Shown in pieces: positions 7,981-64,000 of a DNA stretch of 64,000 nt (position 1 is its first letter; the number at the start of each line of letters is the position of its first letter). The translations under genes were made by a program, and so were the position numbers. Below the pieces are notes generated by a model. The model had not been told where the DNA came from, ran no database searches, and saw only the letters and a list, made by a program, of their open reading frames with translations. The stretch comes from Chrysophaeum taylorii (Eukaryota; Sar; Pelagophyceae; Pelagomonadales; Pelagomonadaceae), in NCBI GenBank assembly GCA_029834535.1, contig JAQMWT010000523.1:186001-250000 (forward strand), read 5' to 3'.

Positions 7981-8470
7981 ATGGCCGCCCGCCCGGTCCT
8001 CCTCACCAACCTCTACCGCCGCGCGTTGCGCGCAGCGAACAAGTGCCCCGATCGTCAGCAGGCATCGACGAGCGCTCGTTGTTTTCTGACTGCCTCCATA
8101 GGCCACGACGATGAGAGCGTACGTTCGATCGTCGTTCAGGACCAACGTCGTCGGAGGGGACGCGAGGCGCGTCGCCGCCTTGCTCGAAGACGCCGAAGAC
8201 CAAGTCTCGCGAATGGAGTACTTACACAAACTCAAGGGCAACAGCCGCCGACTTTCGACCATGGATAGACCGGCCCGCACCTACGAAGCGACCGACCTGC
8301 GACGATATATGACGAAGCACGGCTTTGACGTATTTGCCGACTGGGAGCTAGACGAACTGCGCGGCTTGCGACCGGAGGACGCGGTCGAGCACTTCGGTTT
8401 GTCTCCGGCACAAGCCGTGCGTCTCACATCCAAGATTCGTGGACTCTCTGCCGGCCGGGCCCTCGAGTGA
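7981..8470 (+). CDS. LYR-motif protein (Complex1_LYR family)
   Basis: Exons 7981-8053 and 8118-8470 join across a 64-nt GT-AG intron to give 141 aa. The N-terminus MAARPVLLTNLYRRALRAAN carries the L-Y-R signature, followed by DPYVRSSFRTN and a helix ending EDQVSRMEYL, the usual three-helix layout. LYR proteins act in mitochondria as assembly factors or subunits that bind acyl carrier protein or iron-sulphur machinery. The last 70 residues (a helical segment with VFADWELDELRGLRPEDAVE) are not part of the core family and look like a small SAM-like or helical extension. The alternative acceptor at 8105 would need a phase-0 donor, which is not there. Which LYRM subtype it is cannot be decided. 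Confidence 0.7.
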
Positions 8471-8692
8471 GAGAAAGCGAACCCGCAACGCCCGGTTCGT
8501 TGTTCGCATATTCAGCAATCCACCATCAAGTCGCAGCTGGTCTGGCTTTTAAACAAACAACAACGCTAACAACAACATGAGGACTCATCCCATTTACATT
8601 ACTTAGATCGATGTCGCGTGACTCTATCTGTATAACCGTCGTCAGCGATATAAGCGCCGAGTCATCATTGGCAGTCACAGAACAAGGAAGTC
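8471..8692. other. Shared 3' flank of convergent LYR and selenoprotein genes
   Basis: Convergent 3' UTR space of 222 bp. On the minus strand, where a SECIS element for the selenoprotein candidate should lie, there are short inverted repeats, for example TGACTC near 8662 with GAGTCA near 8620. I could not fit a canonical SECIS (AUGA core, apical AA, GA) by eye. Confidence 0.4.
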
Positions 8693-9244
8693 CTATTTGT
8701 CGAGAGCATCAGGCACCTTGCGACCCACGGCGTTGAGGCCTTGGACCAAGCAGCGTCGCACTTCGGCAAGCTGGTGTTCGCCCGTAATTTGGCGAGTCGC
8801 GGAGACGACTCTGCCTCGCGCGCCGTCACTTGGGTCGACGACGCGCAGGTACCCCCATCAGCTCGTAGCGAGATCGCCGCCCCAGCGACGATGGGGTTCG
8901 TTCGTGTCCGGATTCCCGCGATGATACGTGTTGAACGCGACGCAAATAAAGTTGCGAGCAGCCGCGAGGATGCGTTCGTCCTCGAAGATGCGGCCCGCTC
9001 GCTGGCACCCACGTCACCCGGGCCATTCGACGAAGTTCGCCAGAACGAGCTTGTTCTGCCGCTTCGCCGTCGCAACGATCGCTTCGAGAGAGAGGGAAGT
9101 CACCTCGGCCCTCGAGTTGAGGTTGGCATACTCCAGTTTACCGAGCTCGCAGGGCCACGAAGACGCCATCGCCCGAGGTCTATTCCTGCTCCGACGCGGC
9201 CACACTTCACGCTTCGGGTGCTTGGCCGACAGCCACCCTAGCAT
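8693..9244 (-). CDS. Thioredoxin-fold selenoprotein candidate with two in-frame TGA (Sec) codons
   Basis: A single frame runs from ATG at 9244 to TAG at 8693-8695 (183 residues). It is interrupted only by TGA at 9014-9016 and 8858-8860, both in conserved-looking positions. The first lies in NFVEWPG-U-RGC, giving a U-x-x-C redox motif exactly where thioredoxins have CxxC after a W. The protein continues with FEDERILAAARNFICVAF, typical of the thioredoxin_7-like fold (xFxDxxVxxxLNxxFV). The second lies in DLATS-U-WGYLRVVDPSDG, the position just before the beta-strand that carries the cis-Pro in relatives. No TAA or TAG occurs in the frame. Neither TGA can be removed by a plausible intron. A later start at 9169 (MASSWPCEL) is possible. 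Likely a thiol/selenol oxidoreductase; substrate unknown. Confidence 0.68.
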
Positions 9245-9854: not shown

Positions 9855-9907
9855 CTAGTTAGTTAGTTAGTTAGCTAGTTAGTTAGTTAGCTAGTTAGTT
9901 CGTTAGC

Positions 9908-9954
<47 letters not shown>

Positions 9955-9987
9955 CTAGTTAGTTAGTTTGCTAGTTAGTTAGTTAGC

Positions 9988-10026
<39 letters not shown>
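9855..10026. repeat. (TTAG)n tetranucleotide array
   Basis: About 170 bp of TTAG units with scattered TTCG/CTAG/TTTG variants. The next array has no variants, so this part is older or less homogenised. Confidence 0.95.
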
Positions 10027-10029
<3 letters not shown>

Positions 10030-10142
10030 GTTTGTTTGTTTGTTTGTTTGTTTGTTTGTTTGTTTGTTTGTTTGTTTGTTTGTTTGTTTGTTTGTTTGTT
10101 TGTTTGTTTGTTTGTTTGTTTGTTTGTTTGTTTGTTTGTTTT
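10027..10142. repeat. (TTTG)n tetranucleotide array
   Basis: About 29 nearly perfect TTTG units. It runs directly into the reversed LINE 3' end, so the array is best read as the LINE tail, (CAAA)n then (CTAA)n on the minus strand. Confidence 0.95.
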
Positions 10143-40218: not shown

Positions 40219-40281
40219 CGTTCCGGTCCTTTTTAGCGCCGAGAGAGAAGAAGAAAATGGTGGAAGCACGATGATGATGAG
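40219..40281. promoter_or_regulatory. 63-bp divergent promoter between mgtE and giant FG-GAP gene
   Basis: Only 63 bp separate the two ATGs. The sequence is purine-rich (GAGAGAGAAGAAG on the plus strand) and without a TATA box. Confidence 0.45.
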
Positions 40282-43200
40282 ATGAGGCTCCCTTTTGGGT
40301 TGTGCGCAGCGGCGGCGGCGTACACCCTCGAACTCCACTCGGAGCCGCCGGGGGGAGTCGCAGGCGAACCGTTCGGGGTGCAGCCGGTGGTCAAAATATA
40401 CGACAACCAGGGCGCCCTCGACACGTCCTTCTCGGGGTTCGCGTACGCCGAGCTCTACGACTCGCCCAGCGGGACCGAGAAGTTGAGGTACAACGGCAGC
40501 ACGGCGATCTCGAGGGTCTCGATAATAAATGGCTACGCAACCTTCGAGGGGCTCTACGTCAACGAAGTCGGCGAAGGCTTCTCAATTCGCGTCGTCGGCG
40601 AAGACGACGACTACGACGAGTTCGCGTTTGTGATTTCTGGAAGCTTTGATGTCGTGAACGGTGCGCCCTATACGCTCAGCTTGGTCGGTTTTCCGAGCTC
40701 GGGGACGGGGGGCACGCCGTTTCGATTGCAGCCATCGCTTCACGTCGTCGACGTCGGCGGCAATAGAGTATACGATCTTAACGCCGGGTCGGTCGCCGTC
40801 TCTTTGAACAAAGGAGTTCTTTTACCGATCGACATGCTCTCGCAGCCGGTGACCGACGGCGAAATTCAGTTTTCGGGATTGTATATCGACGAGGCTGATT
40901 CCGGATACGTGTTGAAATTCGAGATTGTTGATTTGGAGCTTTCGGGCCCCCGCTTAGTCTCGATGCCTTCGATTGCTATCGTCGTCGGCCCGCCGGTTTC
41001 GATGACCTTTTGGGAAACGCTCCCTCGCGCCGACGAGACGTCGCTCGTGTCGAAGGCGGGGTATCCATTCCCGCGCCAACCCGTGCTTCGCGTTCTCGAC
41101 GCCGCCGGTAACACGGTCGTCGTCGACGACGACGACGAAAGTTCCGCGTACCTGGTGATCGCGACCGTGCACACAAATCCCACGGGAACGACCTTCATTT
41201 CGGCAGAGGCAGCTTACGCGTTTATGGATCGCGACCGCATCTCGTTCTCGAATTTGGGTCTCGCGACGGTTGGCGAGCGCTACGCCGTGAGGTTCGCGTT
41301 GTATTCGTACCAAGGCTCCACCAATCTCGTCGACGTTGGCGTCTCGGTGGACACGGATCGATTCGACGTCGTAAATGGCCCGCCGCACCATCTCGGTGTT
41401 ATCAGGTCGGCACGGTTCGCGACGGCGGGAGGCACCGCGTTTCCCCAACAACCAGTCGTCGGGATCTACGATAGGGGCGGCAACGTGTTGACGGACGAGA
41501 ACGATGCCTGGATGGAGGCGACGGTGGCGCCGTCGATGAGCACCACGACGACGGTGCGAGGCGACAACGTGATTTCGATCGATACCTCAAGGTACCCGCC
41601 TCCAGAAATACGAAGGGTAACGGCGACGGCGGCCCCCGGGACCACTCTGCGAGACGACGAGGCGGCCGCGGGCGACGAGTTACTCGTAACTATCGTCTTC
41701 GACGCCGACGTTATGCTCGTCACGTCCGACGGATCGCCTCCGATTCTGGAGCTTTATGTGCGGAATGACACGCACCCCGGCCGCGCGGTCTACGTTTTTT
41801 CCGGAAATGAAAATATAATCGATTACACCTCGACGCCCACCTTCAGGTATGCCGTTAGGGAGGGCGACCAGGTCTCTCGCTTGGACGTGTTTTCGCCAGC
41901 AGCGCTTCGGGTGGCAACCGTCGTCGACCCTCTCGATCGACCGGTCAACTTCACGCTCCCGACTGGCCGGTGGACCAAAGGGGCGCTCGCCAACACGACG
42001 CGTCTCCGATTGGATACGCGGCCGCCACGGGTCGTCGACGTTTCGATAGTCGGGTTGACTCCGGGTCGAGTCTACGCGGCGGGGACCGAGCTGGTGTTTA
42101 ACGTGACATTCTCCGACGACGTTCTGGTTTTCGTAGGTATCAACGACGGGCCGTACCTCCCTCTCGGGAACTTGAATGGTTCGGCGATCCGAGAGGACGG
42201 CTACGCCTACGCCGAGTATTCTTCTTCTTCTTCTTCTTCTTCTTCTTCTTCTTCTTCTTCTTCGAGCGGATCCGATTATTATTCGAACGTGCTCGTGTTC
42301 CGGTATGCAACGCGCGCCGACGAGGCCACCGTCGGCTCGTTGCCCGTCGATATCGCCGTCAACGCGAGCCTCGTTCTCCCCGCGGGGACTTACGTCTATA
42401 GGCGGTCGGCGGCGCCCGTGACGCCAATCGATAATTCCGCGATCGCGAGCAATCGGTCGTCGGTCGCGTCCTCGTACGTCTACGTAGACAACACGCCGCC
42501 CGCTGTCAACGCGAGCCTCGGTGTCATGGCACTCTCCGCGAACGGAACATACTATGCCGGCGACACCATCGATTTGGCCGTCGCTTTCGATGAGCCGGTC
42601 GAAATCTCGGAGGTGTCGCCACCCGTGCTCCTCCTCGACACGGGGGTCGGCGTCGCGTTGGCTGCCGAGTATTCAGGCGGGACCGGCACCAAGCGCCTCA
42701 CCTTCCGCTACACCGTCATCGAGGACGATTCTTCCACCCGACTTGATGTCTACGATCCCTCGTCGTCGCTCCAGAACGGTGGCGGCTTTGTGCGCCGGAT
42801 TGCGACGACACCGCTCGTCGACGCCGATCTCGATCTCCGCCCGTCTTATCGCGCTGGTACGGGGCTCACCAACCAGTCGGCGATCACTGTCGACGGCACG
42901 GCGCCAATTATCCTGAGTTACGGCGGCACGGCGAACTTGACGCAAACAACAAAGAATTCGACGACGACAACAACAACAACAACAACATATGTCGCCGACG
43001 ACGTGATTCTTATACGCGTCGTCTTCGACAAGCCGGTCGTCGTCTACGGCACGCCGGGGCTCATCCTCGATTGTGGCGCCGTGTCTCGGACGGCAACGTT
43101 CGGTTCGGGCAACGGGACAACGTCGCTTGTGTTTGAGTACGAAGTGCAGGTGGGAGATGAGACCGAGCAACTGGGGATCGCGGCGACGGTAGCGACCGTC

Positions 43201-46200
43201 TCGCAGGGCTACGCGACAAACGCCTTTGACACCTCGACTGGCATAATTTTGTTAGCATCGACCGCCCCCGTCGTCGAGGCTTATCTCGGCATCCAGTTTG
43301 CGGCCGACCTCACGTCCCGTGCTTTGGGGGCGCCCATTTTTGCGTCGGCATTTTCCAATCTAAACAACACCCTCGTCGGCACCGAGGTCGTCATCAAGGT
43401 GGACGCCACGGCGGCGCGACCAACCAGAGTCGTGTCAATCGATTACGACACGCCGCCACCGTCGTCGATTGGCGCCGGCGAGCGCGTCATTCTCACTGTG
43501 GAATTCACCGACGAAGTCCCGTTGACAAACCAACCACCGGAGCTGCAACTCAACACTGGCGGGCGCGCTCTTTGGCTCGACGGCGCGGGCACCAAGTTCT
43601 GGCGATTCCGGTACGTTGTCGAAGCGGGCGAGAGCAGGACACCTGTATTCGACGTCGCGCTTATTTCGGAATATATCTCGTCGATTCCCGCGGGCTCGCC
43701 GCACCACACGGCGCTCTGGTGCAACGTGAGCGCGGGATGCGAGCTGTACGACCGAGCAGACAACGCGGTCAACCTTACGATGGACAATACGACGGCGATC
43801 TCCGCGGGTCTTCGCGCACACCCGGTCGAGATTGATACGACGGCGCCTCGCGTCAAGGACGTGTGGTCGCGCACCCCGGCGTCGTCGTACGAGCCCGGTC
43901 CAACGGGCCCCTACGCGTCCGCGCCAAACTGGTACACCGTCGGCGAGCGACTCGAATTCGTCGTCGAGTTCGACAAGCCCGTGACAATCGCGACCGACGA
44001 CGGTCCGCTGCTTGGGGTAGACCTCGGTCCGGGGAGCACGAACCCGTACGCTGCGTTCGAGGCCCTCGAAACTGACACGACAATGCGGTTTGGGTTGGCG
44101 GTGAGCACGGGCGATGCGACCGACAACCTCACGCTCGTCGACTTGAGCGACAACTTCCACCAGGCCGAGGTGTACCGGAAATCCACGGCGCCGACAACAC
44201 CCATCAATTACACGCTTTCCGCACATCTCCGTGGCCGCATGTTGGGCGCCAACCGGAGCACGACGACGCCGCTGGTTGTAGACACGAGCCGCGTCCCGCG
44301 AGTTACCGACACGCGATTCGCCGTCGGCCTCGTCGTCGGCGGCAACGCGTCGTCTGCTGTGGGGGAAGAGGCGGTCCTGGCGCCGGGCGATGCCGTCGAC
44401 ATTGAGGTGGAGTTCGACGCGTCAGTCGCTGTCTTCGGCGCGCCATTGCTCCTTTTGAACGCCAACGCCGAATCAAGCGCCGCTTACGTCTCGGGCTCGG
44501 GCACGCCGGTGTTGAGGTTCACGTACCAAGTGAGCGTCGGGGACCATTCGCTGCACCTGGACTACACCGACACCAACGCGCTCCGAAGAGGTCGCATCGA
44601 CCCGGAGGCGACGGCGTTCGAGCAGCTCGCTGCGCGCGCCTGGATTCGCGCAGCTTCGAGCTCGCCATCTCTCGCTGCCGACCTTGTGCTCGGCTCGCCG
44701 GGCACGACAAGATCGTTGAGCTCCGCTGCCAAAGTCCGCGTCGTCGTCGACTCGACGGTCCCCACCCTCACTCGAATCCGGCCGATGCCGACGGTGGCCT
44801 CGCTTGCCGGCCAGCGCGATCGAAGAAGAAGAAGTGATGTGGTCTACGACAAGATTTATGTCCAAGCCGAATTCACGGCGCCCGTGGCCGTTTCGGGATC
44901 TCCGCGTATCCGCCTCGAGACGGGGTCTGTCGATCGTGCGGCTGTGTATCACAATGGCTCGAACACGTCCGTGTTGTTGTTCGAGTACGAAATCCAGCCA
45001 GGAGACAAGACAAGCCGCTTGGAGTATTATTCGGACGTCGACGCGTTCCGGACGTCGAAAGACGCTCTCGAGCTGGAGGACGACGCGACATGGGTCAGGC
45101 GCTTCTCCGCAAACCCAACGCTCGACGCCGACTTCCATCTCAACCCGATAGACGCCGACCTCGTGTCTAACGGCGCGACGTACCGCGACGACGGCGCTCT
45201 GGTGCAGCTAGACGGCGGCGTCGCGTACTATCCCGATCTCGCGTGCACCTTGTTCGCGGACGACTACATCATGCGCTTTACGTGCGATCATCCCGACCTC
45301 GAGGGCCGCATCATCCTCCGCGGTTCGACATTTTTCGACGTCGACTTCGCCGTCGACTCGGTCCTGCGATTGGGCGACGCCGCCGTGTACAACGCGAGAA
45401 TCGAGGCCTTCGCCGTGCCGAACATCGGATACTACTACTCCCACTCCGGCGAGCCGTCGGACTTGTTTGGGTGGGCTGTGGACGTGGACAGCACCGCCGG
45501 TAGCCACGGAGGACTTCTGGTAGCGGGCGCCCCCGGAAAGGCGCGGCCGCTCCCCGAGATCCAGATCGTCACTTTAGTTGGGGTCGTCGACGCCCTCGCC
45601 GGCGAGGAAGCCGAGCTCGAGGTGCAATCGTATGGTGTCGGTGTTCTGGTCCAGCCGGCCGTCCAGTCGTTTATCATCTCCGCCGACCCCTACACGACGT
45701 TGGACGGCACGTTTGAGGTGATCTACGCCGAACCGTCCGGCTCGGAGCTGGCGGCGAGCGCCGTGATTCCCGTGGGGTCCTCGGCTATTGCCGCCGCGCA
45801 GCTCTTGATGAACGCGTACCCCGACCTCGGGCTCGTCACTGCTACCCGAGAGCCGTACGAATGGTGCGCGTGCGCCGGCGGCGCTAATTGGACCTTTTCC
45901 TTCGACGGGCTCGTCGGGTTATCGCTGGTCGGAGAAATCAAAGTGGACGTCTCCGGCATCGCGACGTCGGGGGCCTCCGCGTCGGCGGTCGCGAGGCTCC
46001 ACGAGAGTTCGTACGTCAACGGCACGTGGCGGCTAGACATGCCCGAGACGAGACTCGTGTCTGCCAAGAGGACGCGCGGGCTCCGGTCCGACGCGACCGC
46101 CGAGGATCTGAGAGATGCGATCGAGGTCGACCTCGCGCCGTTGCTGGTCAAAAACGTGGACGTCGAGGACGCGGACTCGCGAGGCGGGCGACGGTGGGCA

Positions 46201-49200
46201 GTCACGTTCGCGCACCAACAGCTTCCATATTTTACCAACGACGTCCCGCAACTCGAGGCGATCGCGCTTCCCGAGCTCCTCGAGAGCAGCGGCCCGGGTG
46301 CCAACGCGTGGGCGTACACTGTCCGCGACGGCGCGAGCCCGGTGACGGGGCATTTCACTCTCAAGTGGCGCGACCCAAAGAAGACGACGCCGAGTATTCC
46401 CTACAACGCGTCGGCGAACCAAGTCCAATTTGCGCTATCTACGCTCGAGTCCATCAGCTCTGTCAAAGTGAGCCGCCACGAGGCGCTGTTGGGCGAGGGT
46501 TTGTCGTGGCGCGTCACGTTCCTCGGGGTACGGGCGCTGGACTCGCGCACGTCGAGCGCGTGGCTCGCCGCGCCGATGGGCGATCTCGAAAAGATCCAAG
46601 TCGGCGACATCGAGGAGCTGTTGGGCTCGACCCCGAGCATCACCGTGAGTAAATACGACGACGTGCCGTCGTGGGCCGGGGCGCGACGCGGTTCGCGCGG
46701 CATCGGCGCCGGCGCGGCGTACGTGTTCGAGCGCTCGACGATTAGCGAGGCGGACACGAGCGTCAAATGGGAGACCGAGTTTCCGCTCGAGACGCAGCGC
46801 GCCCAAGATTACAACGGTGAGGGCATGGGGCTCGGGCACAGCGTCTCGTTCGCGCGCGGCATCGCTCCCCGGTCCGCGTTCGTGCTCTTGGGCGCGCCGT
46901 ACGCCGAGTACCACGGCGTCCGCGAGCAACAGCGCTTCGAGTGCGACGCGTTTGGGGGGTATTTCCGCCTAGGTCTCCGCGGCTTCTGGACCGATGCTAT
47001 TCCCTGGAACGCGACCGTCGCGGAGTTCGCGGCGCGCCTCGGAGGCCGCTTGAACGACCTCGACCCGCTCCACCCCGTCCCGGCCCTCGAGATCATCGCC
47101 GTCGGCGGCGCGACGCACGCGTGTTCGCCGTCGAGAAATGCCTCGAGGAACGAGTCGATTCAAGTCACCTTCATGTCGCCGCCGTCGGGCCCGGGCGTCG
47201 AAGGTACCACGGTCGCGGACGTCGAGCTCCTCGAGCTCGACGACTCGGCGTTGTTGTTGACCGGCGGCACCAGGAGTAGCACGAGGGTCGTCGAGGTGCG
47301 CAAGGGCACGCGTCAGCCGCACGGGCTCGGCGCGCTCGGGGATGCCCGCGGCGCGGCGTTTCTGTACGAGCGCCTCGAGAACGACAGCGGCAACAAGTAT
47401 TGGCCGATGCGCGCCAAGCTCGTCGAGCACGAGGCGTGTCGCGAAGGCGACAGATTCGGGTGGGCGGTGGCGCTCGTCGCGTCGGCCGGCGACGACGACG
47501 CAGGCGGCCTCGTTGCAGCCGTGGGCGCGCCGAGCGCTGGCACCGATCGTGCCGGCTCGGTGTTCATCTTCTCCGCCCTCAACGGCTGGGAACGCGCGGG
47601 CGAACCGTTGACGTCCGTCGTCGCCGACTCTCGCGAATTCGACGAGTTCGGGTACGCGGTGGCGATGGTGCGTTCGAGCAACGTGTACACGTTGCTAGTG
47701 GGCGCGCCCGGCGACGACGAGAACACGGGCGCGGCCTACGTGTTCAAGGCCGAGTCGTTTGAAGAGGCCACGGCCGGCGAGTTCTTGTACGCGCAGCGCC
47801 TCGACGGCGACCTCGACGGTGCCGCTATCTTTCGGCCGCGCAGGCCAGGCGACCGCTACGGTTGCTCGGTCGCCCTCGATGGAAACGACCTCGTCGTAGG
47901 CGCGTCTGGGGCGACCGACACTACCCTTCGCGGGTTTTTGTTCGAGGACCCCGGCTGGGAGGTCGGAGTCGTGAGCGTCTTCAAGCGCGACTCCCCCAAC
48001 GACAACTTCTACTTTGTCCAGAGACTAAGACCGACGGACGTGCTCGCGGGCGACCGCTTTGGCACGTCGGTCGCCATCGGGAACGGGACCGTCGTCGCCG
48101 CGGGGCTCCAGGGGTTGCGGAACCTCGGCGAACGCGGGGTTCCGACGGACGCTCCGCTCGTGCCGCGCCAGGCGGTCTGGGCGCTCGAGACGTCCTCGGA
48201 CGGAAACGACGGCATCGGCGGCACGTTCCGGATCGGCTGGAGAAGCCTCAACACCTCGGAGACGGCCGAGGTCTGTCTCGGCGAGTTGCCGCTCTCGAAA
48301 ATTACGGATGGGTGCGAGGTCGTCGCGGCCGCCGCGCACGACCCGACGTATCGCGCCGACGGCATCGAGCGCTGGACGCGGGACATCAAAGCGGGGGCGA
48401 CGGCGCTCGAGGTTCGCACGGCCATGGAGGACGATTTAGGCACCGGCGACCTCATGGTGTCGCGGAGTGGTCCGTTTGACTCGTCGGGCGGCGGGTACCA
48501 GTGGAACGTCACGTTCGCGGGCGTCGACCACGACTTGTACGAAGGCATCCCGCCGCTGGTCGGCGACGGTTCGGGTTTGGTCGGCGGCCAAGGGTCTTAC
48601 CACCCGCGTTTAGACGTCCAACTCCTGAACGCGCGCCCGCCGTACGTCCGGGGGCTCGGCCACCTCTTCACGCGCGGCGACGACGGAATGTTCGCCGAGC
48701 AAGCCCTCCTCCGGCCGTACACGTTCCAGCGCCAGGACCTGTTTGGATTCTCGGCGGCGCTCGACGGCGACGTCGCGGTGTTTGGCGCCCCCAACTCGGA
48801 CAGCGAAGAGACGGGCATAAACTCGGGTGCCGTGTCGGCGTACGACCTCTCGTTCGTTTCGTTGGAGTTCGCGGACCGGGACCTCAACGTGACCGAGGGC
48901 GATACGCTCAAAGTGCGGCTGCGGCGGCGGCGCGACGCCGAGGGCATCGCGGGCGGCGGCGGCGGCGGCGGCGCCGACCGGAGGCTCTACGCGTACGTCT
49001 ACACGCTCTCGCGAAACGCCGACACGACGACGCAGACCTTTTTCAAGCTCCTCTACGGGCTCGAGAGCGGTCGCGCCGTCGCCACGGGCATGACGGTTAT
49101 CGACGCGGTCGGCGCCGGCAGTGCGCACGCGCGGGCGCAGTACTACGGCGGTCCCTCGAACGCGTCGGCCTGGGTCGACGGCGGCCGCGACGACCTCGGC

Positions 49201-52200
49201 GTCTCGGACTTCATCCCGCTCGGACTCCAGGCGGTGATGCGCCCCGGGGAAGAATCGATCGACGTGACCTTGGAGTCGGTCGACGACGCGATTCGCGAGG
49301 TTCCCGACGAAGCCGTCGACGTGATTTTGTGGATGCCCGGGATGCTGGCCTCGCCGCTCGGGAGTCAGCAGGCGCGCGCGACGATTCTCGACGACGGCGA
49401 CGGCCTCGACGGGGCCGCGATTACCGTCTTCGACAAGCTCGGCGAATCCTCGGTGCCGCGCGTGGCCAAGACGCTCACGCCGGCCGAGATCGCGACCGGC
49501 GTCGCCATAGAGAGCCGCGAGAGTCGGTCGTATTATGACGACCGCGAAGCGGCGTCGGTAGCGGCGGCGTTTGCCGAACGCGACGAGATTGTTGTGGTTT
49601 TGGGGTCCTCCTCGTCCGAGGAGGCTCTCGTCTACCGCCGGTCGGCCGACCGCGGTCTCTGGACGCTCGACGCCGAGCTCGAGGCTGCGAACTACACGGC
49701 CGTTGTTTCCGGGGGCCAGCAGCCCAAAAAGTTTGGGGCGGCCGTCGCGGGCGGCGTCGTCTACGGCCGGGAGGACGAGTCTGCTGCGTCGTCGACAATC
49801 CTCGTCGGAGCGCCGGGCGAGGCGGCCGCGTACACGTTCGTTCGCGTCGCCTCGAAGAACAACAACAACAACAACAACAACACGTCGTCTTCTACAAACG
49901 CGACGACAAGCAGCCAGCCGTCCGTGGCGTGGGAGGTCGAGGCACGGCTGAGCGCGGCCGACGCGGCGACCGAAGCGCGGCACGAGTTTGGCGGCGCCGT
50001 GGCGATCGACGGCGACATCGCGGCCGTCGGCGCGGCGGGAATAGAGACGGTCTTCGTCTTCTACCGGCGGTGGGACAGCTCTCAGTACGCTTGGGCCGCG
50101 ACGCCGTCGGTCGTGCGGAGCAGCGACTACGATTTCGACGTACTCTTGGGCGGTACGGTCGTCTCGATGCACGAACAGGGCTTCGGGAAAGCCGTCGCGC
50201 TCTCGCAGAACGCGCTAGTCGTCGGCGCGCCGTTCGCCGACTACGGGAACCGCGGGTCCACCTTGGACCGCGAGACCTTCGATACGAACGGCGTCGACAA
50301 CCTGCGTCTCGGCAAGGGCAAGGCGTACGTCTTCCGGTCGTCGCCGCCGCGGGCGACGGCGACGGTGCGCGGCGACGCGGTGCTGTCGAACGGCACATTC
50401 ACGCTCGGCGTCTCGGTCGCCAACCGCAGCGGCTGCGAGACGGACCCGCTGCCGCACGACGCCTCGGCCGAAAAAATTCGAGAGGCGCTCGAGGCAAAGT
50501 GCTCGGGAGAAGTCGTCGTCGGCGAAATGGTCGTGACGCGCGGCGATCCGGGGACGACCTACAACGGCGGGTCGCGGCAGAGCTGGACGATCACGTTCCT
50601 CGGGGAGACGGCGTCGCCCCCGCCCCTGGTCGCGCGGTGGCGGGGGGCGGGGTGCGACTCGAGCTGCGACGCGTTCGACGCGACGTGGGCGCTCGCGCCG
50701 TCGCGGCAGGTCGTGATCGAGGACGAGGTGTCGCGCGGCGCGTGGGCGGAAGAAGCTGCCCTCCAGGCGCCCGATCGCGTCAGCGGCGCGCGTTTTGGGT
50801 CGTCGTTGGCGCTCGACGGCGACCGGCTGGTGGTCGGAGCGCCGCGCGCTCCGGGCGCGTCCAAAACGACCTGGGACTTTGAGACGGGCGACCTCGTCGG
50901 CTGGGAGCGCTCGGGAACGGCCTTCGACGCGCAGCCGACCTACGGCGACGGGCCGGCGTACCGGCAAGATGCCGAAAACGACATTCTCGGCGCGGGGTCG
51001 AGCCTCGCGCGCGAGGGCGGCCGGCCGCGGGCCGCGCGGCCGCGCGGACGATATTTTGTCGGCACGGGAGAAGACCGGCCGGGCGACGCGAGCGATGTGA
51101 CGCAACCACTTCCAGGGACCTCGGCGGGCGCCGCCGGTTCGGACGCGGCCGTCGGCACGCTGACGTCCGAAGCGATTCCGCTCCCGACGACGGGCGAGTT
51201 TCTGGCCGCGTCGTTTCTCGTGGGGGGCGGATGCGACGCGCTCAAGGAGTACGTCGAGCTCCTCGTCGACGGCGTCGCCGTCGCGCGCGAGACGGGGCGG
51301 TGCGACGAGCGCATGTACAACGCCTCCTGGGACGTGACGCGCTTCGGCGGCCGCGCGGCCGTGATCCGCGTCGTCGACGCCTCGCGGAGCAACTGGGGCC
51401 ACGTCAACGTGGACCACTTTGGATTCTCGTGGCTCAACAGAGGCCACGGCCAGGGCGAGATCGCGGGGACTTCGCACTTTGCCTCGGGCGGGCGATGGGG
51501 AGCCCAAACTGTCGACGCCGGCGCGGCCTACGCTTTTTTTAGAGACGACTACGGCGAGTGGAAAGCGGAGGCGCGGCTGAGCCCGTCGGACCGGCGCTCG
51601 GGCGACCTCTTCGGGTCGTCGGTCGCGATTTCCTCCTCGAGCGGCCTCGCGGCCGTTGGCGCCCCCGCGGCCGACGCGCGGACCCACTGGCGCCTGCCGC
51701 CGCCGCTCCGGCCGGTCGGTGCCGGCCCGCGTCGTCAGCTCCCGCTCGACCCCGCGACCTTCGAGGACGTCGCCGCCGTCTACGCCTCGCCCGACGACCG
51801 ACCCCGCGCCACGCCCGTCGAGCTCCCGGTCGCCGAGAAGACGCCCTTTCAGCGCGAGTGGTCAAATTCCGGGATAAGCGGAGTCTGGGACGTGCTCGCT
51901 TCCGACCGCGAATCGGGAAGGACCGCGCGCGAGCCCGGCGATGCCCAAGACGAATCGAAAAAGGCCGGCGCCGTCTACGTGTTCGAGCGCGCCGAGGCCC
52001 GGTGGTCGGGGATCGAGCTCGTCAAGCTCCAGCCGCCGTCGATGTTCGCGCGCGACAACTTCGGCGCCTCGGTCGCTTTCCTCGACGACCGATTACTCCT
52101 CGCGGGCGCGCCGGGCGACGACTCCTTCGGTACCAACGCGGGCGCCGCCTTCGCCTACGACCCCCACGCCTTCCGCGTCCGCTTTTCCCAGTCCGAGTTT

Positions 52201-52608
52201 ACCGTCGTCGAGGGCGGCGACGACGCCCAGATCACCGTAGAGCGAGACGACGACGACGACGACGACGACCAAGACGTGACGATCGCGTACTCGACCGAGG
52301 ACCTCTCGGCCAAAGGGGTGGACGCCTCGAAATTCGCCGCGTGCGGTGCCCTCGCTCCCACCGCGCGCGAGGGCTGCGGCGACTACCAGCAGACCATGGG
52401 CACCCTCACCATCCCCGCCGGCGACACCTTCGCCTCCTTTCGCGTCCCCGTCGTCGACGACCGCTGCCACGAGCACTACTCCGAGTACCTCCAGCTCACC
52501 CTCTCGATCCCGGGCGCCCCCGCGCTCCTCGGCGCCCACTTCATCGCCCGCCTCCGCATCGACGACGACGATTTGGACGACCCGCCCTGCGCCCACACTT
52601 TTCTCTAG
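40282..52608 (+). CDS. Giant extracellular FG-GAP / Calx-beta protein, 4,108 aa, intronless
   Basis: One uninterrupted frame of 12.3 kb. A short hydrophobic signal follows Met (MRLPFGLCAAAAAYT). Residues about 10-430: four Ig-like repeats marked by GGTPFRLQPSLHVVD and AFPQQPVVGIYD. Residues about 440-1,620: eight beta-sandwich repeats of the form (x)PxV...AGDxIxxxVxFDxPV...GxPxLxLxTG...FxYxVxxGD. From about 1,720 on: FG-GAP (integrin-propeller) units such as RFGTSVAIGNGTVVAAG and DNFGASVAFLDDRLLLAGAP, with GxFxLx...W.VTFxG repeats inserted among them. Calx-beta domains lie near 2,860-3,030 and 3,950-4,090. No membrane helix is seen at the end (PCAHTFL). Probably a secreted adhesion or cell-coat protein. 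Poly-Ser, poly-Thr, poly-Asn and poly-Asp runs are microsatellite-encoded. Confidence 0.9.
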   Translation: MRLPFGLCAAAAAYTLELHSEPPGGVAGEPFGVQPVVKIYDNQGALDTSFSGFAYAELYDSPSGTEKLRYNGSTAISRVSIINGYATFEGLYVNEVGEGFSIRVVGEDDDYDEFAFVISGSFDVVNGAPYTLSLVGFPSSGTGGTPFRLQPSLHVVDVGGNRVYDLNAGSVAVSLNKGVLLPIDMLSQPVTDGEIQFSGLYIDEADSGYVLKFEIVDLELSGPRLVSMPSIAIVVGPPVSMTFWETLPRADETSLVSKAGYPFPRQPVLRVLDAAGNTVVVDDDDESSAYLVIATVHTNPTGTTFISAEAAYAFMDRDRISFSNLGLATVGERYAVRFALYSYQGSTNLVDVGVSVDTDRFDVVNGPPHHLGVIRSARFATAGGTAFPQQPVVGIYDRGGNVLTDENDAWMEATVAPSMSTTTTVRGDNVISIDTSRYPPPEIRRVTATAAPGTTLRDDEAAAGDELLVTIVFDADVMLVTSDGSPPILELYVRNDTHPGRAVYVFSGNENIIDYTSTPTFRYAVREGDQVSRLDVFSPAALRVATVVDPLDRPVNFTLPTGRWTKGALANTTRLRLDTRPPRVVDVSIVGLTPGRVYAAGTELVFNVTFSDDVLVFVGINDGPYLPLGNLNGSAIREDGYAYAEYSSSSSSSSSSSSSSSSGSDYYSNVLVFRYATRADEATVGSLPVDIAVNASLVLPAGTYVYRRSAAPVTPIDNSAIASNRSSVASSYVYVDNTPPAVNASLGVMALSANGTYYAGDTIDLAVAFDEPVEISEVSPPVLLLDTGVGVALAAEYSGGTGTKRLTFRYTVIEDDSSTRLDVYDPSSSLQNGGGFVRRIATTPLVDADLDLRPSYRAGTGLTNQSAITVDGTAPIILSYGGTANLTQTTKNSTTTTTTTTTYVADDVILIRVVFDKPVVVYGTPGLILDCGAVSRTATFGSGNGTTSLVFEYEVQVGDETEQLGIAATVATVSQGYATNAFDTSTGIILLASTAPVVEAYLGIQFAADLTSRALGAPIFASAFSNLNNTLVGTEVVIKVDATAARPTRVVSIDYDTPPPSSIGAGERVILTVEFTDEVPLTNQPPELQLNTGGRALWLDGAGTKFWRFRYVVEAGESRTPVFDVALISEYISSIPAGSPHHTALWCNVSAGCELYDRADNAVNLTMDNTTAISAGLRAHPVEIDTTAPRVKDVWSRTPASSYEPGPTGPYASAPNWYTVGERLEFVVEFDKPVTIATDDGPLLGVDLGPGSTNPYAAFEALETDTTMRFGLAVSTGDATDNLTLVDLSDNFHQAEVYRKSTAPTTPINYTLSAHLRGRMLGANRSTTTPLVVDTSRVPRVTDTRFAVGLVVGGNASSAVGEEAVLAPGDAVDIEVEFDASVAVFGAPLLLLNANAESSAAYVSGSGTPVLRFTYQVSVGDHSLHLDYTDTNALRRGRIDPEATAFEQLAARAWIRAASSSPSLAADLVLGSPGTTRSLSSAAKVRVVVDSTVPTLTRIRPMPTVASLAGQRDRRRRSDVVYDKIYVQAEFTAPVAVSGSPRIRLETGSVDRAAVYHNGSNTSVLLFEYEIQPGDKTSRLEYYSDVDAFRTSKDALELEDDATWVRRFSANPTLDADFHLNPIDADLVSNGATYRDDGALVQLDGGVAYYPDLACTLFADDYIMRFTCDHPDLEGRIILRGSTFFDVDFAVDSVLRLGDAAVYNARIEAFAVPNIGYYYSHSGEPSDLFGWAVDVDSTAGSHGGLLVAGAPGKARPLPEIQIVTLVGVVDALAGEEAELEVQSYGVGVLVQPAVQSFIISADPYTTLDGTFEVIYAEPSGSELAASAVIPVGSSAIAAAQLLMNAYPDLGLVTATREPYEWCACAGGANWTFSFDGLVGLSLVGEIKVDVSGIATSGASASAVARLHESSYVNGTWRLDMPETRLVSAKRTRGLRSDATAEDLRDAIEVDLAPLLVKNVDVEDADSRGGRRWAVTFAHQQLPYFTNDVPQLEAIALPELLESSGPGANAWAYTVRDGASPVTGHFTLKWRDPKKTTPSIPYNASANQVQFALSTLESISSVKVSRHEALLGEGLSWRVTFLGVRALDSRTSSAWLAAPMGDLEKIQVGDIEELLGSTPSITVSKYDDVPSWAGARRGSRGIGAGAAYVFERSTISEADTSVKWETEFPLETQRAQDYNGEGMGLGHSVSFARGIAPRSAFVLLGAPYAEYHGVREQQRFECDAFGGYFRLGLRGFWTDAIPWNATVAEFAARLGGRLNDLDPLHPVPALEIIAVGGATHACSPSRNASRNESIQVTFMSPPSGPGVEGTTVADVELLELDDSALLLTGGTRSSTRVVEVRKGTRQPHGLGALGDARGAAFLYERLENDSGNKYWPMRAKLVEHEACREGDRFGWAVALVASAGDDDAGGLVAAVGAPSAGTDRAGSVFIFSALNGWERAGEPLTSVVADSREFDEFGYAVAMVRSSNVYTLLVGAPGDDENTGAAYVFKAESFEEATAGEFLYAQRLDGDLDGAAIFRPRRPGDRYGCSVALDGNDLVVGASGATDTTLRGFLFEDPGWEVGVVSVFKRDSPNDNFYFVQRLRPTDVLAGDRFGTSVAIGNGTVVAAGLQGLRNLGERGVPTDAPLVPRQAVWALETSSDGNDGIGGTFRIGWRSLNTSETAEVCLGELPLSKITDGCEVVAAAAHDPTYRADGIERWTRDIKAGATALEVRTAMEDDLGTGDLMVSRSGPFDSSGGGYQWNVTFAGVDHDLYEGIPPLVGDGSGLVGGQGSYHPRLDVQLLNARPPYVRGLGHLFTRGDDGMFAEQALLRPYTFQRQDLFGFSAALDGDVAVFGAPNSDSEETGINSGAVSAYDLSFVSLEFADRDLNVTEGDTLKVRLRRRRDAEGIAGGGGGGGADRRLYAYVYTLSRNADTTTQTFFKLLYGLESGRAVATGMTVIDAVGAGSAHARAQYYGGPSNASAWVDGGRDDLGVSDFIPLGLQAVMRPGEESIDVTLESVDDAIREVPDEAVDVILWMPGMLASPLGSQQARATILDDGDGLDGAAITVFDKLGESSVPRVAKTLTPAEIATGVAIESRESRSYYDDREAASVAAAFAERDEIVVVLGSSSSEEALVYRRSADRGLWTLDAELEAANYTAVVSGGQQPKKFGAAVAGGVVYGREDESAASSTILVGAPGEAAAYTFVRVASKNNNNNNNNTSSSTNATTSSQPSVAWEVEARLSAADAATEARHEFGGAVAIDGDIAAVGAAGIETVFVFYRRWDSSQYAWAATPSVVRSSDYDFDVLLGGTVVSMHEQGFGKAVALSQNALVVGAPFADYGNRGSTLDRETFDTNGVDNLRLGKGKAYVFRSSPPRATATVRGDAVLSNGTFTLGVSVANRSGCETDPLPHDASAEKIREALEAKCSGEVVVGEMVVTRGDPGTTYNGGSRQSWTITFLGETASPPPLVARWRGAGCDSSCDAFDATWALAPSRQVVIEDEVSRGAWAEEAALQAPDRVSGARFGSSLALDGDRLVVGAPRAPGASKTTWDFETGDLVGWERSGTAFDAQPTYGDGPAYRQDAENDILGAGSSLAREGGRPRAARPRGRYFVGTGEDRPGDASDVTQPLPGTSAGAAGSDAAVGTLTSEAIPLPTTGEFLAASFLVGGGCDALKEYVELLVDGVAVARETGRCDERMYNASWDVTRFGGRAAVIRVVDASRSNWGHVNVDHFGFSWLNRGHGQGEIAGTSHFASGGRWGAQTVDAGAAYAFFRDDYGEWKAEARLSPSDRRSGDLFGSSVAISSSSGLAAVGAPAADARTHWRLPPPLRPVGAGPRRQLPLDPATFEDVAAVYASPDDRPRATPVELPVAEKTPFQREWSNSGISGVWDVLASDRESGRTAREPGDAQDESKKAGAVYVFERAEARWSGIELVKLQPPSMFARDNFGASVAFLDDRLLLAGAPGDDSFGTNAGAAFAYDPHAFRVRFSQSEFTVVEGGDDAQITVERDDDDDDDDQDVTIAYSTEDLSAKGVDASKFAACGALAPTAREGCGDYQQTMGTLTIPAGDTFASFRVPVVDDRCHEHYSEYLQLTLSIPGAPALLGAHFIARLRIDDDDLDDPPCAHTFL
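42219..42263. repeat. (TTC)n microsatellite coding poly-Ser
   Basis: About 15 TTC/CTT units read as consecutive serines within the giant protein, so length changes stay in frame. Confidence 0.9.
49858..49881. repeat. (AAC)n microsatellite coding poly-Asn
   Basis: Eight consecutive AAC codons in a loop of the giant protein, close to the TTC and ACA runs in style. Confidence 0.9.
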
Positions 52609-55614: not shown

Positions 55615-56049
55615 ATGACCTCGCAAGACGACCTACTCCAAGCGGTCGACGAGGCCTGCGAGCGCATCGTCGCCTTCCTCGGCGAGAGCAAGGTTCCGGA
55701 ACAGTCGTTGGCCACGATCTCCAAGCTGGCGGCCGACCACGCGGCCGAGGACGTCTTGGAGCGCGCCGAAGAAATGGGTTATTGCATGCCCTACATGAAC
55801 CACGGCAATCTCGTGCGACTCCTCACGACCGCCTGGGTGGCCACCTGCGGCTACAAGCAGCTCCTGCGCAAAAAGGCATTCCGCCTCTGCATGCGCCTCG
55901 AGGCCGACAACAAGACTGACCCGGACGAACTCGAGGAGGCGAGAAGAAGGCGCGACGAAATGGATCGCTCCTGCGCGCTCGCCAACCTCAAGCTCTACAA
56001 AATGCGCTTCTTGAAGCTGTCCTACGACGCCGAGCACAAGGCATCATGA
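55615..56049 (+). CDS. Small helical orphan protein, 144 aa
   Basis: The ATG at 55615 follows a pyrimidine-rich stretch. All-helical protein (LQAVDEACERIVAFLGESKV, AEDVLERAEEMGYCMPYM, ANLKLYKMRFLKLSYDAE). No family recognised. It has the codon style of the neighbouring genes and is the last clear gene before the low-GC island. Confidence 0.65.
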   Translation: MTSQDDLLQAVDEACERIVAFLGESKVPEQSLATISKLAADHAAEDVLERAEEMGYCMPYMNHGNLVRLLTTAWVATCGYKQLLRKKAFRLCMRLEADNKTDPDELEEARRRRDEMDRSCALANLKLYKMRFLKLSYDAEHKAS

Positions 56050-59000
56050 CCTCGTCACCACCCTCCCTCCTTAGAGAACGGTAAAAATCACTGTGCCTCT
56101 GGTAGAGAATGATGGCAGTGGTAGTGCTGCCTTTCGTCCTGTCCTCGAACGACACAAAGAGCAGCACGGTGTGCGACACAGCGATTTAGTGGTTGTAGGT
56201 GTGAAGAGGGTGTGGTTAAGGGGGGTTCCTAACCCTAAATGGAATTTTCTATCTCTACGCCCTCGCAGATTGATTGAACTCGGGGATGAGCAGCGAAATC
56301 TGGGACAAACAAAACAAATGTCTGGCCAGGGACAAATGGATGTCGAGTCGTCGTGAGGAGGCGTTGAAGTAAAGTGTGCGAAGTGCATGAAAGAGATAGA
56401 GGAAAACGAAACGCAGGTGGTGTGTGAAGTGAGAAAGGAGAAAGAGCGGGTGATCAAAGAAAGGCGAAAGAATTGATCGTGAGTAAGAAGAAAAGTGGAG
56501 GAAGATGCTAAGTAGGCTAACGATGAAGTATGGCGAATGGTGTGCGAGAGATCAGATCGTCGTCTTGCACGGTGGCTAATGATATAGGGGACGGTGTGTG
56601 CCGGTGGATAAATCCGAAATAGCTGGGGAAGCATGTGAGTAGAGCGGGGGGTCTAACGAATAATAGTAACAGGAGGGATCATGGGTGAGGCAGTCGGGAA
56701 TTGTGCAGCAGACCAATGGTTGATCGAAAGGCGAATAATGGGAGTGGCCGTAGGGATGAGACGCTATTGTGGCTAATGGTGGGCCAGTGAAGATTTGACG
56801 ATATGACGGAGTGATAGCGTGATCCCATGAAGAGATATGACCATTTAACCAAATCGGTTTCGACATGGTAAGGTAATCGTCGTAATGAGAGCGAGTAAGG
56901 CGGTGCTGTCTCTGGAAGATGAGGGAACCAGAATTGCCTGTCACATACGTGTCAAAGCTGTCGTCCTGAGTGTAGCGTGGGACAGCTGAAGCTAGGCTAT
57001 GAGCGTCTAAAATGATGTGGGTGTAATCGTCATGCGATGGTGATATCTTTATAAAGCTGTCTGGGGTTGGCCATAAATATGAAAACTCTAAATTTGCTGT
57101 AGCTTTGGGTTCGTAGTCTCGTGTAAGTCGCCAGTGGCTATCATCAAAAGATGATTGGGGGGAGACTGAGATTTGCGAGTGTATCGCGTATGATGGTGGA
57201 TACAGGCGTGTGTCCTGCCCTGACGAGTCGGTGCTCTGTGCAGAAAATGCAGAAGAGTTAGGCAACAGAAGAGAAGGCCTGAAGGCGATGGACTGCTTGA
57301 AGATAGTGTCCGTGCCAGGGGGGGAGTTGACTTCGAAGGTATGGTCAAAGTCGCATCTTTCGTGTTCTATGTTGCAAAGTGATCCTGAACTGTGACAATC
57401 GACTGATCCATTCATTTCATGTCCGGAGTCGTTGACATCAGAATCAAACGAAGCGTTTTCACCAGAATCAAACTTCCCTTGATGTACAAGCGCGAGGGAG
57501 CGTGGTGCATCCCTGGTGAATCGTGCAGTGACTGAAAGGGGAGACATTCGACAGAAGGGTGTTGTCGATATGCGCGAGCTGTACAGTTGACAACGTGTAG
57601 GGAGCGTATGTTTCAAGAGAGGATTGATCTGTGGACGGGGGATGTCCGAAGAATGAGCATGATGTGAGCTCCTGTCCATAATGCGAGAGCTGTCCGGCAA
57701 TGAGTCATGTGAGACTGTGGCTAGCAGCGAGTGTGTGGGAATGAAGAAGTAGGTAGGCATGGCAGTTAACTTCCCTTGATTCGTAACACAACTGGGTGGG
57801 GCTAGCGGTGTGCGGCAGTGAGATGCGGTGAAATGCTTAGAGCAGAGCGCGTGTCCAACCTGTGGAGATTGGGGGTTATCCTCGCGGGTGCGACGGGAAG
57901 CGTCGACTGGGTGCGAATCGCAATGGCGGCTGTTGGGCTCAGAGTTCTGCAATATGGAACCTGCAGTGCGAACGGAGAGGAGCGAACCGAGTGCGTCATA
58001 AGAGCGTAATACGCTAGTGCTGTCTGAGCTGTGTCCGAAGCATGATTCCGATAACAACGTCGACAGACGCGAGATATGAACAGAACTGGACGAGGATTTC
58101 GCGTGAAGTTGCGCTGTAACCGAACCATAGTTGTGCAGAGCTTCAACGTCAAGCATAGTGCTGGGAGGGACGTGAAGAGAGGTGAGTAAAGGACTCTGCG
58201 TGCGGCTATCATTTGGTGGCGGGCATTTATTGTGCGAGACTAGCGATAACGGCGAAGTGCTGCGTTGGCATGACTGAACTTCGTTTGCACGTTGCAGCAT
58301 GCTGGATAAACTCGAGCGAGGGTGGAATGCTGAAACTTGAGAGGTCTGACCTGCGAGAGATTGACGGAAGAGCGTGGGAGGCTCGGAATTGCATTGATGA
58401 CGGAACTTGGTGTCATCACAAATCGTCGGGGATTTGGTCGTCGGGAGTCGTGTTGAAGGCGGGAGGAACGACGAATACTCATCAGGTCTTGGCGTGTGAC
58501 AGAGGTCGTAGAAAGAGGGACTTCGGTACGTGCCTTGAATTGAGTTCCGATGTAGCCAGAGTAGCCATAGGAGGCATGACTGATACGAATCGAAACGAAT
58601 CTTTTCGTCGGTAGAATTCTAATGCGCCATCGTAATTCGAACTGGGTGAAATCTTCGAATTGCTGGTGAAACCGAGAGACCATGATAGCGAAACGAGCGC
58701 AGAGCCGGGCGGCGGTCGGATGAGGCGCTTCAGCGGTGGCTGAGACGACAGTGTTCTGCGCATCATGAATCATAAGGTGTTTGGGCATCGTACTGTGCGA
58801 CAAGCGAGCGTGCGTCTAAGTTGACTGTGGGTGTACCATGGGGATGGCGCAATGTTCGTAGTCTAAACCGAGAGGGGCGGTGAGCGTGTCGTCGCGAGTG
58901 AATTGTAGCCTGTGTGGTGTCTGGGCTTTAATCGGAGTATGACATATGACGTCATACAAAGCGATGAGAGCTGAATCAGACGCGAGGGGACTCGTTAGTA

Positions 59001-61787: not shown

Positions 61788-63958
61788 CTAGGTCTTTGAC
61801 TTGTCGAAAGTGGGATCGAGCTGGCTTGGTGTTTCTTCGACAAGATTGCTTCCTGGGCCGTTGTGCCCGAAGAGAGAAGAAGCCCTTATGCATGTCTCGG
61901 CAGCATGATGGTGAGCATGACCATCTGGCAAAGAGCTGTCTTTTGATAGTTCGGAACTTGTCGAATCTTGATTTGGGTGGTCTTGATTCTTGGTGGGACT
62001 TTGCACGTGGTGATCTTCGCTGGTGGTAGGGGTACGGTCGCCAGTGTTGAATGTACGCCTTCGCAACTCGGACGCGGGGATGTGGTCCGAGTTGGAATGA
62101 ACCAGGTAGCTGATAAGGCGAGCGGGTGCAAAGTGGTTCAGAGGGTGCCAAAGAGGCGAAGAGTGAGTGGGTAGAGGAGGAGGGGCCAGAGATGGCGGGG
62201 GTTTGAGAACAGAGAGACGGAGTGGGTGGTGAACCAGGAGAACCAGGTCCAGGGTATCCGTGGAGGTGGTGATGATACTCGGGGAGAAAAGAGGCATTGG
62301 AGGTTGGTTCGGAGGGGGATGAGGGTTGGTTGTGGATGGGGAAAGGAGGTGAAAGATGCGATGCAGCATCTTGAGTGGGGTGGGTGGCATCCAATGAGGT
62401 GAGAATGGTTTGGAGGACGGCGTTGATGTCAAGGTGGGAGCTGCGGATGTCAGCGTGGGCAGTTTCGAGTACCTTGAGCTGGGAGTGGGTGAAATGAAGT
62501 TCGGCTTGGGTGGAGACCAGTTCGTCGGCTTGGATGGCGAGCTGGGCAGTGGCGAAAGCCAGGGCGGCGTCGGTGGTGGTGAGTTTGTTGGCTGTGGAGG
62601 ACAAAGCGTCATCCTTTGCGAATGAGCATGGCCTTGGTTACGGCCAATTCAGCGGTTTGGAAGCGGAATGCAGCCGTAGTGGCGGCCAACTCGCGTTGGA
62701 GCGCAGACGGAGGTGCATTGGAACTTGGAGAAAGGAGGTGGAGTGTCGCTTGAGTGGGGACTCGAGTGGGGACGGAGGAATCGTCGTAGTCGTAGAATAT
62801 ATAGGCACGCGGGTAGAGGTGCAAATCGGGGGAACAGCGACTTTCGAAAGGTGATGAAGGTCTGTCATGAGGGTGCGATGGTTGGGCGGCAGGAACTTGA
62901 GCCGCGGAAGGAGCTGTGGTAGAAATGGAAGTGCCAGGGCCGTCGTGGCCGTAGGTGGCATGGTCTTGCGGATGGAGAGGAAATTCCTGAGTAGAGTGAC
63001 TTGCGGAAGATGATGGGTATCGGACAAGGGAATCCGACAGTGGGGCGGCATGAGCTTGAGCCGCGGTGGGGGCTTGGTCAGGGATGAAGGTGCCGGGGCC
63101 GTCATGGCCGTATATGGCATGATCATCAAGGAAATGAGTGGTGTGGCGAGGGGGTTGACGAGGATGTTGGGGAACTACAAGTTGTATAGGTGGTGTAGCA
63201 GGAGTCGCCGACAGTGGGGAGTTAGGCTCCAGTGAAGGAGGTGGAGGCTCCGGTGGGGTTGGCGGAGTGAAGGGAGTAGTGTTTATTGGTGGTGGTGGTG
63301 GAGTGTTCGATATTCCTGGTGCGATATTCGAACGAGGTGGAGTGTCCTCGTGAATGTGGGGTGTGCCAGGTTGTGGAGTAACCTTGGCTATGCCTGGGTC
63401 CGGAGGGAAGGCAGCTGGGTCTGAGACTTTGCCGTGGGGTGTTTGACATCCGGTGGGGTTGTCGGCAGGAGGTGGGTTCTGTTCATGGTCGAGAACGTTT
63501 TGAACTGTAGGAGGGGGGGTGACCATAGAGATGATCGGGTCTTGGGTCGCGACTTCGTGAGAAGTTTGCTTGTGCTTGAGGGGAGTTGCCGGAAGAACAG
63601 CAGGTTGGGGAGCTTGTTCAAGTTGCTCGTCTTGATCGAGTCGCTCGTCTTGATCGAGTTGCACGTCTTGATCGAGTTGCTCGTCTTGATCAAATTGCTC
63701 GTCTTGATCAAATTGCTCGTCTCGAGCTTCGATTGCGGCAGTGGTTTTGGCTCTGAGATCAGTGTAATCAGCGGCGATTCTAGCTTTGCGAATAGCTTGA
63801 TCATCGGCGAGTTGATCTAAGAATTTAGCTTTGATCTGTTGGCAACTAGCGGCGAACTCAGCAAATAAATCGGCTTGGAACTGTTGAATGAGAGCTTGTT
63901 TTGTAGCGAATTGCGTCGCTACTTCCGGACTCGTGACTTGTGGGTCGTGAGTCGCCAT
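61788..63958 (-). CDS. Proline-rich coiled-coil protein with GH(D/N)GPG repeats
   Basis: The ATG at 63958 (MATHDPQVTSPEVATQ) opens a frame that joins, over a possible 50-nt GT-AG intron (62641-62592), to a second open part ending at 61788; together 706 aa. The first 110 residues are helical and include a six-fold DEQxDQ repeat. Then follow long Pro/Thr-rich stretches and three copies of a GH(D/N)GPG(T/S) motif near 63.1, 62.95 and 61.86 kb, which supports the reading frame on both sides of the intron. The function is unknown; a disordered structural or surface protein is possible, as is part of a mobile element. Confidence 0.42.
63621..63728. repeat. 18-bp tandem repeat, about six units
   Basis: The unit TTGCTCGTCTTGATCGAG and close variants encode the acidic DEQ(L/F)DQ repeat of the minus-strand protein. 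Confidence 0.9.
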
Positions 63959-64000
63959 CGTTTTCGGGTTGCGTTTTGCGCGTTGTTGGTTGCCTTTCAC

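Follow-up and report, generated by a model that had tools for sequence, protein, structure and literature searches.

The locus examined here lies in a 64,000-nucleotide stretch of a Chrysophaeum taylorii contig (the window). On its minus strand, from 9244 to 8693, a frame of 183 residues ends in TAG and contains exactly two internal TGA codons and no other stop, as an initial annotation had noticed in proposing a selenoprotein with two selenocysteines (Sec). The likely coding sequence, 9169..8693, runs from an ATG at 9169 to the TAG at 8695-8693 and specifies 158 residues. TGA1 (9016-9014) is residue 77 counted from the ATG at 9244 and residue 52 from the ATG at 9169, and opens a U-R-G-C redox motif (9005..9016). 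TGA2 (8860-8858), the presumed second Sec, is residue 129 or 104 on the same two scales. A SECIS-like element follows the TAG at 8665..8638. Residue names such as U77, C80 and U129 are numbered below from 9244.

Several other features mark the window. A probable convergent gene occupies 7981..8460 on the plus strand; it starts MAARPVLLTNLYRRALRAAN and its 3′ end points towards that of the two-TGA gene. A short intron probably accounts for the break in its frame, and its product may be an LYR-motif protein. Upstream of the two-TGA gene, positions 9856..10140 hold about 71 tandem copies of TAGT. Farther away on the plus strand, the 4123 codons of 40237..52608 form one uninterrupted frame whose product has FG-GAP repeats and matches Calx-beta, and the stretch 56001..64000 shows a sustained positive GC skew of 0.26-0.42, above that of the rest of the window.

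Coding signal across the two TGA codons

We scored the frame with a codon model for which 44 non-Sec loci of this genome, with two genes counted twice, supplied 8548 codons. Read through both TGAs, positions 9169..8696 score +36.0 bits, compared with a mean of -50.8 bits for 2000 base shuffles of the same positions (z 6.6 for the true frame), +5.7 bits for the antisense frame, and -26 to -65 bits for the remaining four frames. The score is positive in all three segments, at 17.1 bits before TGA1, 8.4 bits between the TGAs and 9.8 bits after TGA2, which confirms the earlier impression that coding sequence in the same frame flanks each TGA. The coding signal of the two-TGA frame is not a chance effect.

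The same scoring makes the start at 9244, assumed in the initial annotation, the less likely one. The 25 codons that follow that ATG (9170..9244) score -14.8 bits and are probably 5′ untranslated, so the protein probably starts at the ATG at 9169 (MASSWPCELG). Upstream of the ATG at 9244, the same frame stays open for another 46 codons.

A distant relative of a thioredoxin-like (seleno)protein family

Searches of protein databases, plasmids and viral contigs found no homologue of the two-TGA protein, and hence no orthologue with Sec or Cys at TGA1 or TGA2; in its own genome (70.8 Mb, 697 contigs), its sole match is its own locus. Profile searches were more informative. The best NCBIfam match is NF041383 (VPGUxxT thioredoxin-like (seleno)protein, type 2), with an E value of 5.7e-6 and 26.2 bits, and aligns residues 28-157 of the 158-residue protein with positions 11-132 of the 287 in the profile; the type 1 profile, NF041382, matches with an E value of 0.0036. 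Since these scores lie far under the curated cut-offs (275 bits for NF041383), we regard the protein as a distant relative of this family and not as a member. Pfam Thioredoxin_7 (PF13899) matches residues 27-85 with an E value of 6e-4 and 19.9-21.6 bits, short of its gathering score of 27 bits. A structure model computed from the single sequence had a low mean pLDDT of 46.6 and gave meaningless Foldseek matches, and both were discarded.

To read the preferences of the profiles, we scored single-residue substitutions of the two-TGA protein. On NF041383, replacing the TGA1 residue with A or S loses 6.4-6.6 bits, replacing the P at -2 with A loses 5.2 bits, replacing the G at -1 with A loses 4.5 bits, and replacing the W at -3 with V gains 4.7 bits; these scores place the VPG-Cys/Sec motif of the family on WPG-TGA1. 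The VPGU motif is thus present as WPGU, with the P, the G and the Cys/Sec column in agreement. Cys is preferred at +3 as well, where a change to A or T loses 6.4-6.6 bits: the protein has Cys in place of the T in the family's name, and NF041383 itself ranks C over T by 6.6 bits. Thioredoxin_7 likewise favours Cys at both places of the UxxC motif, losing 5.9 bits when U becomes A and 6.7 bits when the Cys at +3 does. By substitution scoring on these two profiles, and not by comparison with individual orthologues, the first TGA therefore aligns with the Cys/Sec of a thioredoxin-like family, in support of the proposal that WPG-U-RGC is a selenol form of the CxxC active site. An alternative placement of the VPGU motif at the profile's cis-Pro loop was rejected: VPGC tried at five places changed the score by -2.6 to +0.9 bits, three of the five test sequences being one residue short.

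The profile gives a different picture at TGA2. Eleven replacements there shift the NF041383 score by between -0.9 and +1.8 bits, and A (+1.8), S (+0.9) and T (+0.6 bits) are slightly preferred over C, from which we conclude that the family has no Cys at this position. In the NF041383 profile TGA2 does not fall on a Cys or Sec of homologues, so the case for a second Sec rests on the gene's own frame, and a Sec at this position would be new. The initial annotation had placed TGA2 just before the strand that follows the redox site, and the alignment to the profile is consistent with that placement, although Cys is absent from the family at this point. On the evidence of spacing and of a small NF041383 gain (+0.9 bits) when G131 is changed to P, we presume that TGA2 lies two residues before the cis-Pro position.

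NF041383 is longer than the algal protein, and its later part points to a possible partner. In 38 bacterial genomes the profile found matches in 26, with 31 of 32 matching rows at profile positions 104-250. Five of the matching bacterial pieces (L135, L137, L138, L141 and L142) are MsrA by Pfam, and the three of these that were also run on NCBIfam match NF041383 at about 145-199. The model thus seems to combine two domains, one thioredoxin-like and one MsrA-like, and from this combination the most likely work of the algal domain would be electron transfer to an enzyme with a thiol or selenol, perhaps a methionine sulfoxide reductase; by the fused-domain argument, the free-standing domain may serve an MsrA. 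A search of 395 genomes of the phylum to which the Desulfosarcina genome belongs returned no NF041383 match at an E value of 1e-12, a result that is not proof of absence. One further locus, in a deltaproteobacterial genome (L136), reads as a Sec-MsrA with the motif GUFWGP.

Selenocysteine decoding and the 3′ element

The genome encodes a tRNA-Sec (60 bits) whose anticodon loop, CUUCAAA, contains UCA, and family searches identified genes with an in-frame TGA of SelW, SelT, SelH, GPx, SelM/Sep15, MsrA and peroxiredoxin types, the names SelW, SelT and SelH being our own assignments from the sequences. Another pelagophyte, Aureococcus anophagefferens, is credited with 82 selenoprotein genes in PMC7539508.

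We used the selenoprotein genes as controls for the 3′ end of the two-TGA gene. Of 17 listed matches with an in-frame TGA, 14 were used (L013-L015, L017-L019, L021-L023, L028, L033, L035, L041 and L049); L029, with both a TGA and a TAG and no Sec at the site, and L039, whose TGA lies in a probable intron, were dropped, and C435:15586 was also left out. For five of the 14 (L014, L015, L022, L033 and L049) the stop is a TGA picked at the domain end, and L049 is a match under the Pfam cut-off. This last locus matches the AhpC type weakly, has U-P-P-C within a long frame, and probably encodes a Sec UxxC protein. For comparison, 46 loci were hand-picked from 62 without an in-frame TGA, and 44 were counted, two being too near the locus end; two genes are present twice among those picked, and some of the stops may lie in introns.

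The controls share a 3′ style. The first ATGAC lies 24-55 nt past the stop in all 14, and whereas 14 of 14 Sec controls have ATGAC within 110 nt of the stop, just 4 of the 44 non-Sec loci do (Fisher p 3e-10). The nine controls whose stop was not picked at a domain end all finish in TAA or TAG, and every one of them has the ATGAC. In 12 of the 14, the ATGAC is followed by a 5′ arm 11-14 nt long whose pairing score is at least 17, a loop, and CGA or TGA, and eight of these 12 long-armed controls have CC in the apical loop. One control, L013, has two candidate elements, 24 and 155 nt past its stop.

The two-TGA gene carries a compact version of this arrangement. Its core (8665..8638, minus strand) begins 27 nt past the stop and consists of ATGAC (8665-8661), a 6-bp stem (UCGGCG/CGCUGA) with a 7-nt loop, and CGAC (8641-8638), so that the two halves of the quartet flank a stem. 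In the single-strand fold, the centroid structure shows the 6-bp hairpin and a possible outer helix between UCUGU (8677..8681) and ACAGA (8627..8631). Helix II, at 6 bp, falls short of the arms of about 11-14 nt, as it does in L028 and, with a short arm, in L015; the apical loop, CUUAUAU, has neither AA nor CC; and the folding energy of the element is not better than that of shuffles (z -0.11). The Sec-MsrA gene, L028, is the one other gene found with the 6-bp form: at its second ATGAC, 69 nt past the stop, GCCUCG-CAAGAUU-CGAGGC is followed by UGA. Within 83 loci of the genome this short form, which we defined post hoc once these two genes had been seen, occurs at 2 of 365 ATGAC sites, namely those of the two-TGA gene and L028; because loci overlap, the 365 sites represent 322 different 60-nt contexts. 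At 60% G+C, random sequence has the form at 147 of 200000 sites. Across the 64-kb window it occurs at 2 of 90 ATGAC sites, the other being at 39084 (minus strand) with just two G-C pairs.

Two further measures were set aside. Scored for a long arm, the two-TGA element reaches 17.0, a value that 15 of the 90 ATGAC sites in the window attain, this one included. A second long-arm candidate, GTGA at 8427 (score 20.6), was not adopted, being antisense to the possible gene there; among 126 one-kb pieces taken from the window, 10 reach a score of 20, counting ATGA alone. An initial set of SECIS scripts detected nothing convincing either in the controls or in the two-TGA gene and was replaced after we had read the control 3′ ends. 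Rfam SECIS_1 (RF00031) had no match in the window, nor in the whole genome at an E value of 1, and because the genome is rich in selenoprotein genes we judge that model to be insensitive and its null result uninformative. Its location and motif give the element the appearance of a SECIS of this genome; given its stem length and its lack of AA or CC, we call it SECIS-like. The SECIS anticipated at the 3′ end of the gene is thus represented by an ATGAC/CGAC element at the expected distance, but one of non-canonical form that Rfam SECIS_1 does not find. Knowing this compact, ATGAC-based style of SECIS, which Rfam misses, would make it easier to detect other selenoproteins in algae of this kind.

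A two-selenocysteine reading and its alternatives

The family match at TGA1, the presence of tRNA-Sec(UCA) and of selenoprotein genes, and the ATGAC...YGA element all support the selenoprotein reading, and we consider it likely that the gene encodes a genuine two-Sec thioredoxin-like protein of a selenoprotein-rich alga. We propose that UGA-1 would be read by tRNA-Sec, giving a UxxC active site (WPG-U-R-G-C) its selenol, and that UGA-2 would be read as a second Sec in a loop facing the active site, near the cis-Pro position. One short hairpin (ATGAC, 6 bp, CGAC), 27 nt past the TAG, would drive both recodings. The product would be a thiol-selenol oxidoreductase with U77/C80 as its redox pair and U129 nearby in the fold, assuming that a thioredoxin-like structure extends beyond the profile match, and U129 might take part in catalysis, resolve an intermediate, or be neutral. 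As a more tentative extension, on the doubtful side of even, the UxxC Sec and a lineage-specific Sec of the cis-Pro loop might form a diselenide or a U77/C80/U129 relay within one small domain, with the protein acting as electron donor to the alga's Sec-MsrA and both genes being decoded by a hairpin well short of textbook length.

The alternative that survives best is that only TGA1 encodes Sec, TGA2 having arisen through a recent disabling mutation, polymorphism or assembly error, or serving as a regulated stop. NF041383 lacks a Cys at TGA2, the sequence examined comes from one assembly, and the codon scores are lowest around TGA2, at -2.0 and +1.7 bits in the pair of 20-codon windows containing it; the two-TGA frame is still top among the frames shown in these two windows, and in the next one (8854-8795) two other frames outscore it. 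Against this, the frame continues beyond TGA2 for 54 codons without another stop, at +9.8 bits, and the part after TGA2 adds about 5 bits to the NF041383 match (26.2 bits for the full protein versus 21.0 when cut at TGA2). A working SECIS would be expected to decode both UGAs. We therefore judge a single functional Sec unlikely.

Considerably less probable is that a Cys-type thioredoxin-like gene gained two nonsense codons and is now decaying as a pseudogene. Two stops, a weak thioredoxin match and the failure to find an orthologue would suit decay, but TAA, TAG and frameshifts are all absent, the two stops being TGA; one of them coincides with the first Cys of CxxC; the coding signal persists in all three segments; and the SECIS-like element is placed as in the selenoprotein genes of the genome. 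A 189-nt intron (GTGACG...CCCAAG, its donor overlapping TGA1) would take out both TGAs, and is the one such case among 13 possible GT-AG introns, 40-200 nt long, whose removal would skip TGA2 and keep the frame, but we find it scarcely credible because it would discard much thioredoxin-like sequence, including the +3 Cys preferred by the profile, and windows scoring up to +10.3 bits per 20 codons. Equally implausible is that the true gene is the antisense plus-strand frame at 8654..9241, which runs for 195 amino acids without stops in the same codon register and nearly ties in codon score past TGA2 (10.6 versus 9.8 bits), but has no Pfam match and scores 5.7 against 36.0 bits over the whole gene.

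Few proteins are known to carry two Sec residues in one redox domain. In the two-Sec reading, the second would stand at a place without Cys in the closest family model, and so would represent a gain of selenium and not a swap of Cys for Sec. The closest relatives by profile, NF041383 and NF041382, resemble the two-TGA protein in having VPG and Cys/Sec on WPG-TGA1 and in preferring Cys at +3. NF041383, however, spans 287 positions with a later part that is MsrA-like over the region covered (about 145-200), whereas the two-TGA protein corresponds to the first domain only, has W in place of V, and carries its presumed second Sec where the profile has no Cys column. Thioredoxin_7 has its domain in common with the two-TGA protein, with CxxC there and UxxC here. 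A literature search for VPGUxxT and VPGU found a single review (PMC13188914), which lists the family as hypothetical protein OS_HP5 among prokaryotic selenoproteins, whereas the two-TGA gene comes from an alga.

Among pelagophytes, PMC5917014 reports 59 predicted selenoproteins in Aureococcus, some of them labelled ‘Thx domain’ or ‘Hypo’. The ‘Thx domain’ selenoproteins resemble the product of the two-TGA gene by description, as thioredoxin-domain proteins of a pelagophyte; given that thioredoxin-domain and hypothetical selenoproteins are mentioned there, the two-TGA gene may already be on a published list. A precedent for more than one Sec is PDI_e, described in PMC7539508 as an algal thioredoxin-like selenoprotein with three neighbouring Sec residues in a GUGUU motif. 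Like PDI_e, the two-TGA protein would contain more than one Sec, but where those three are close neighbours, the two presumed here lie 52 residues apart.
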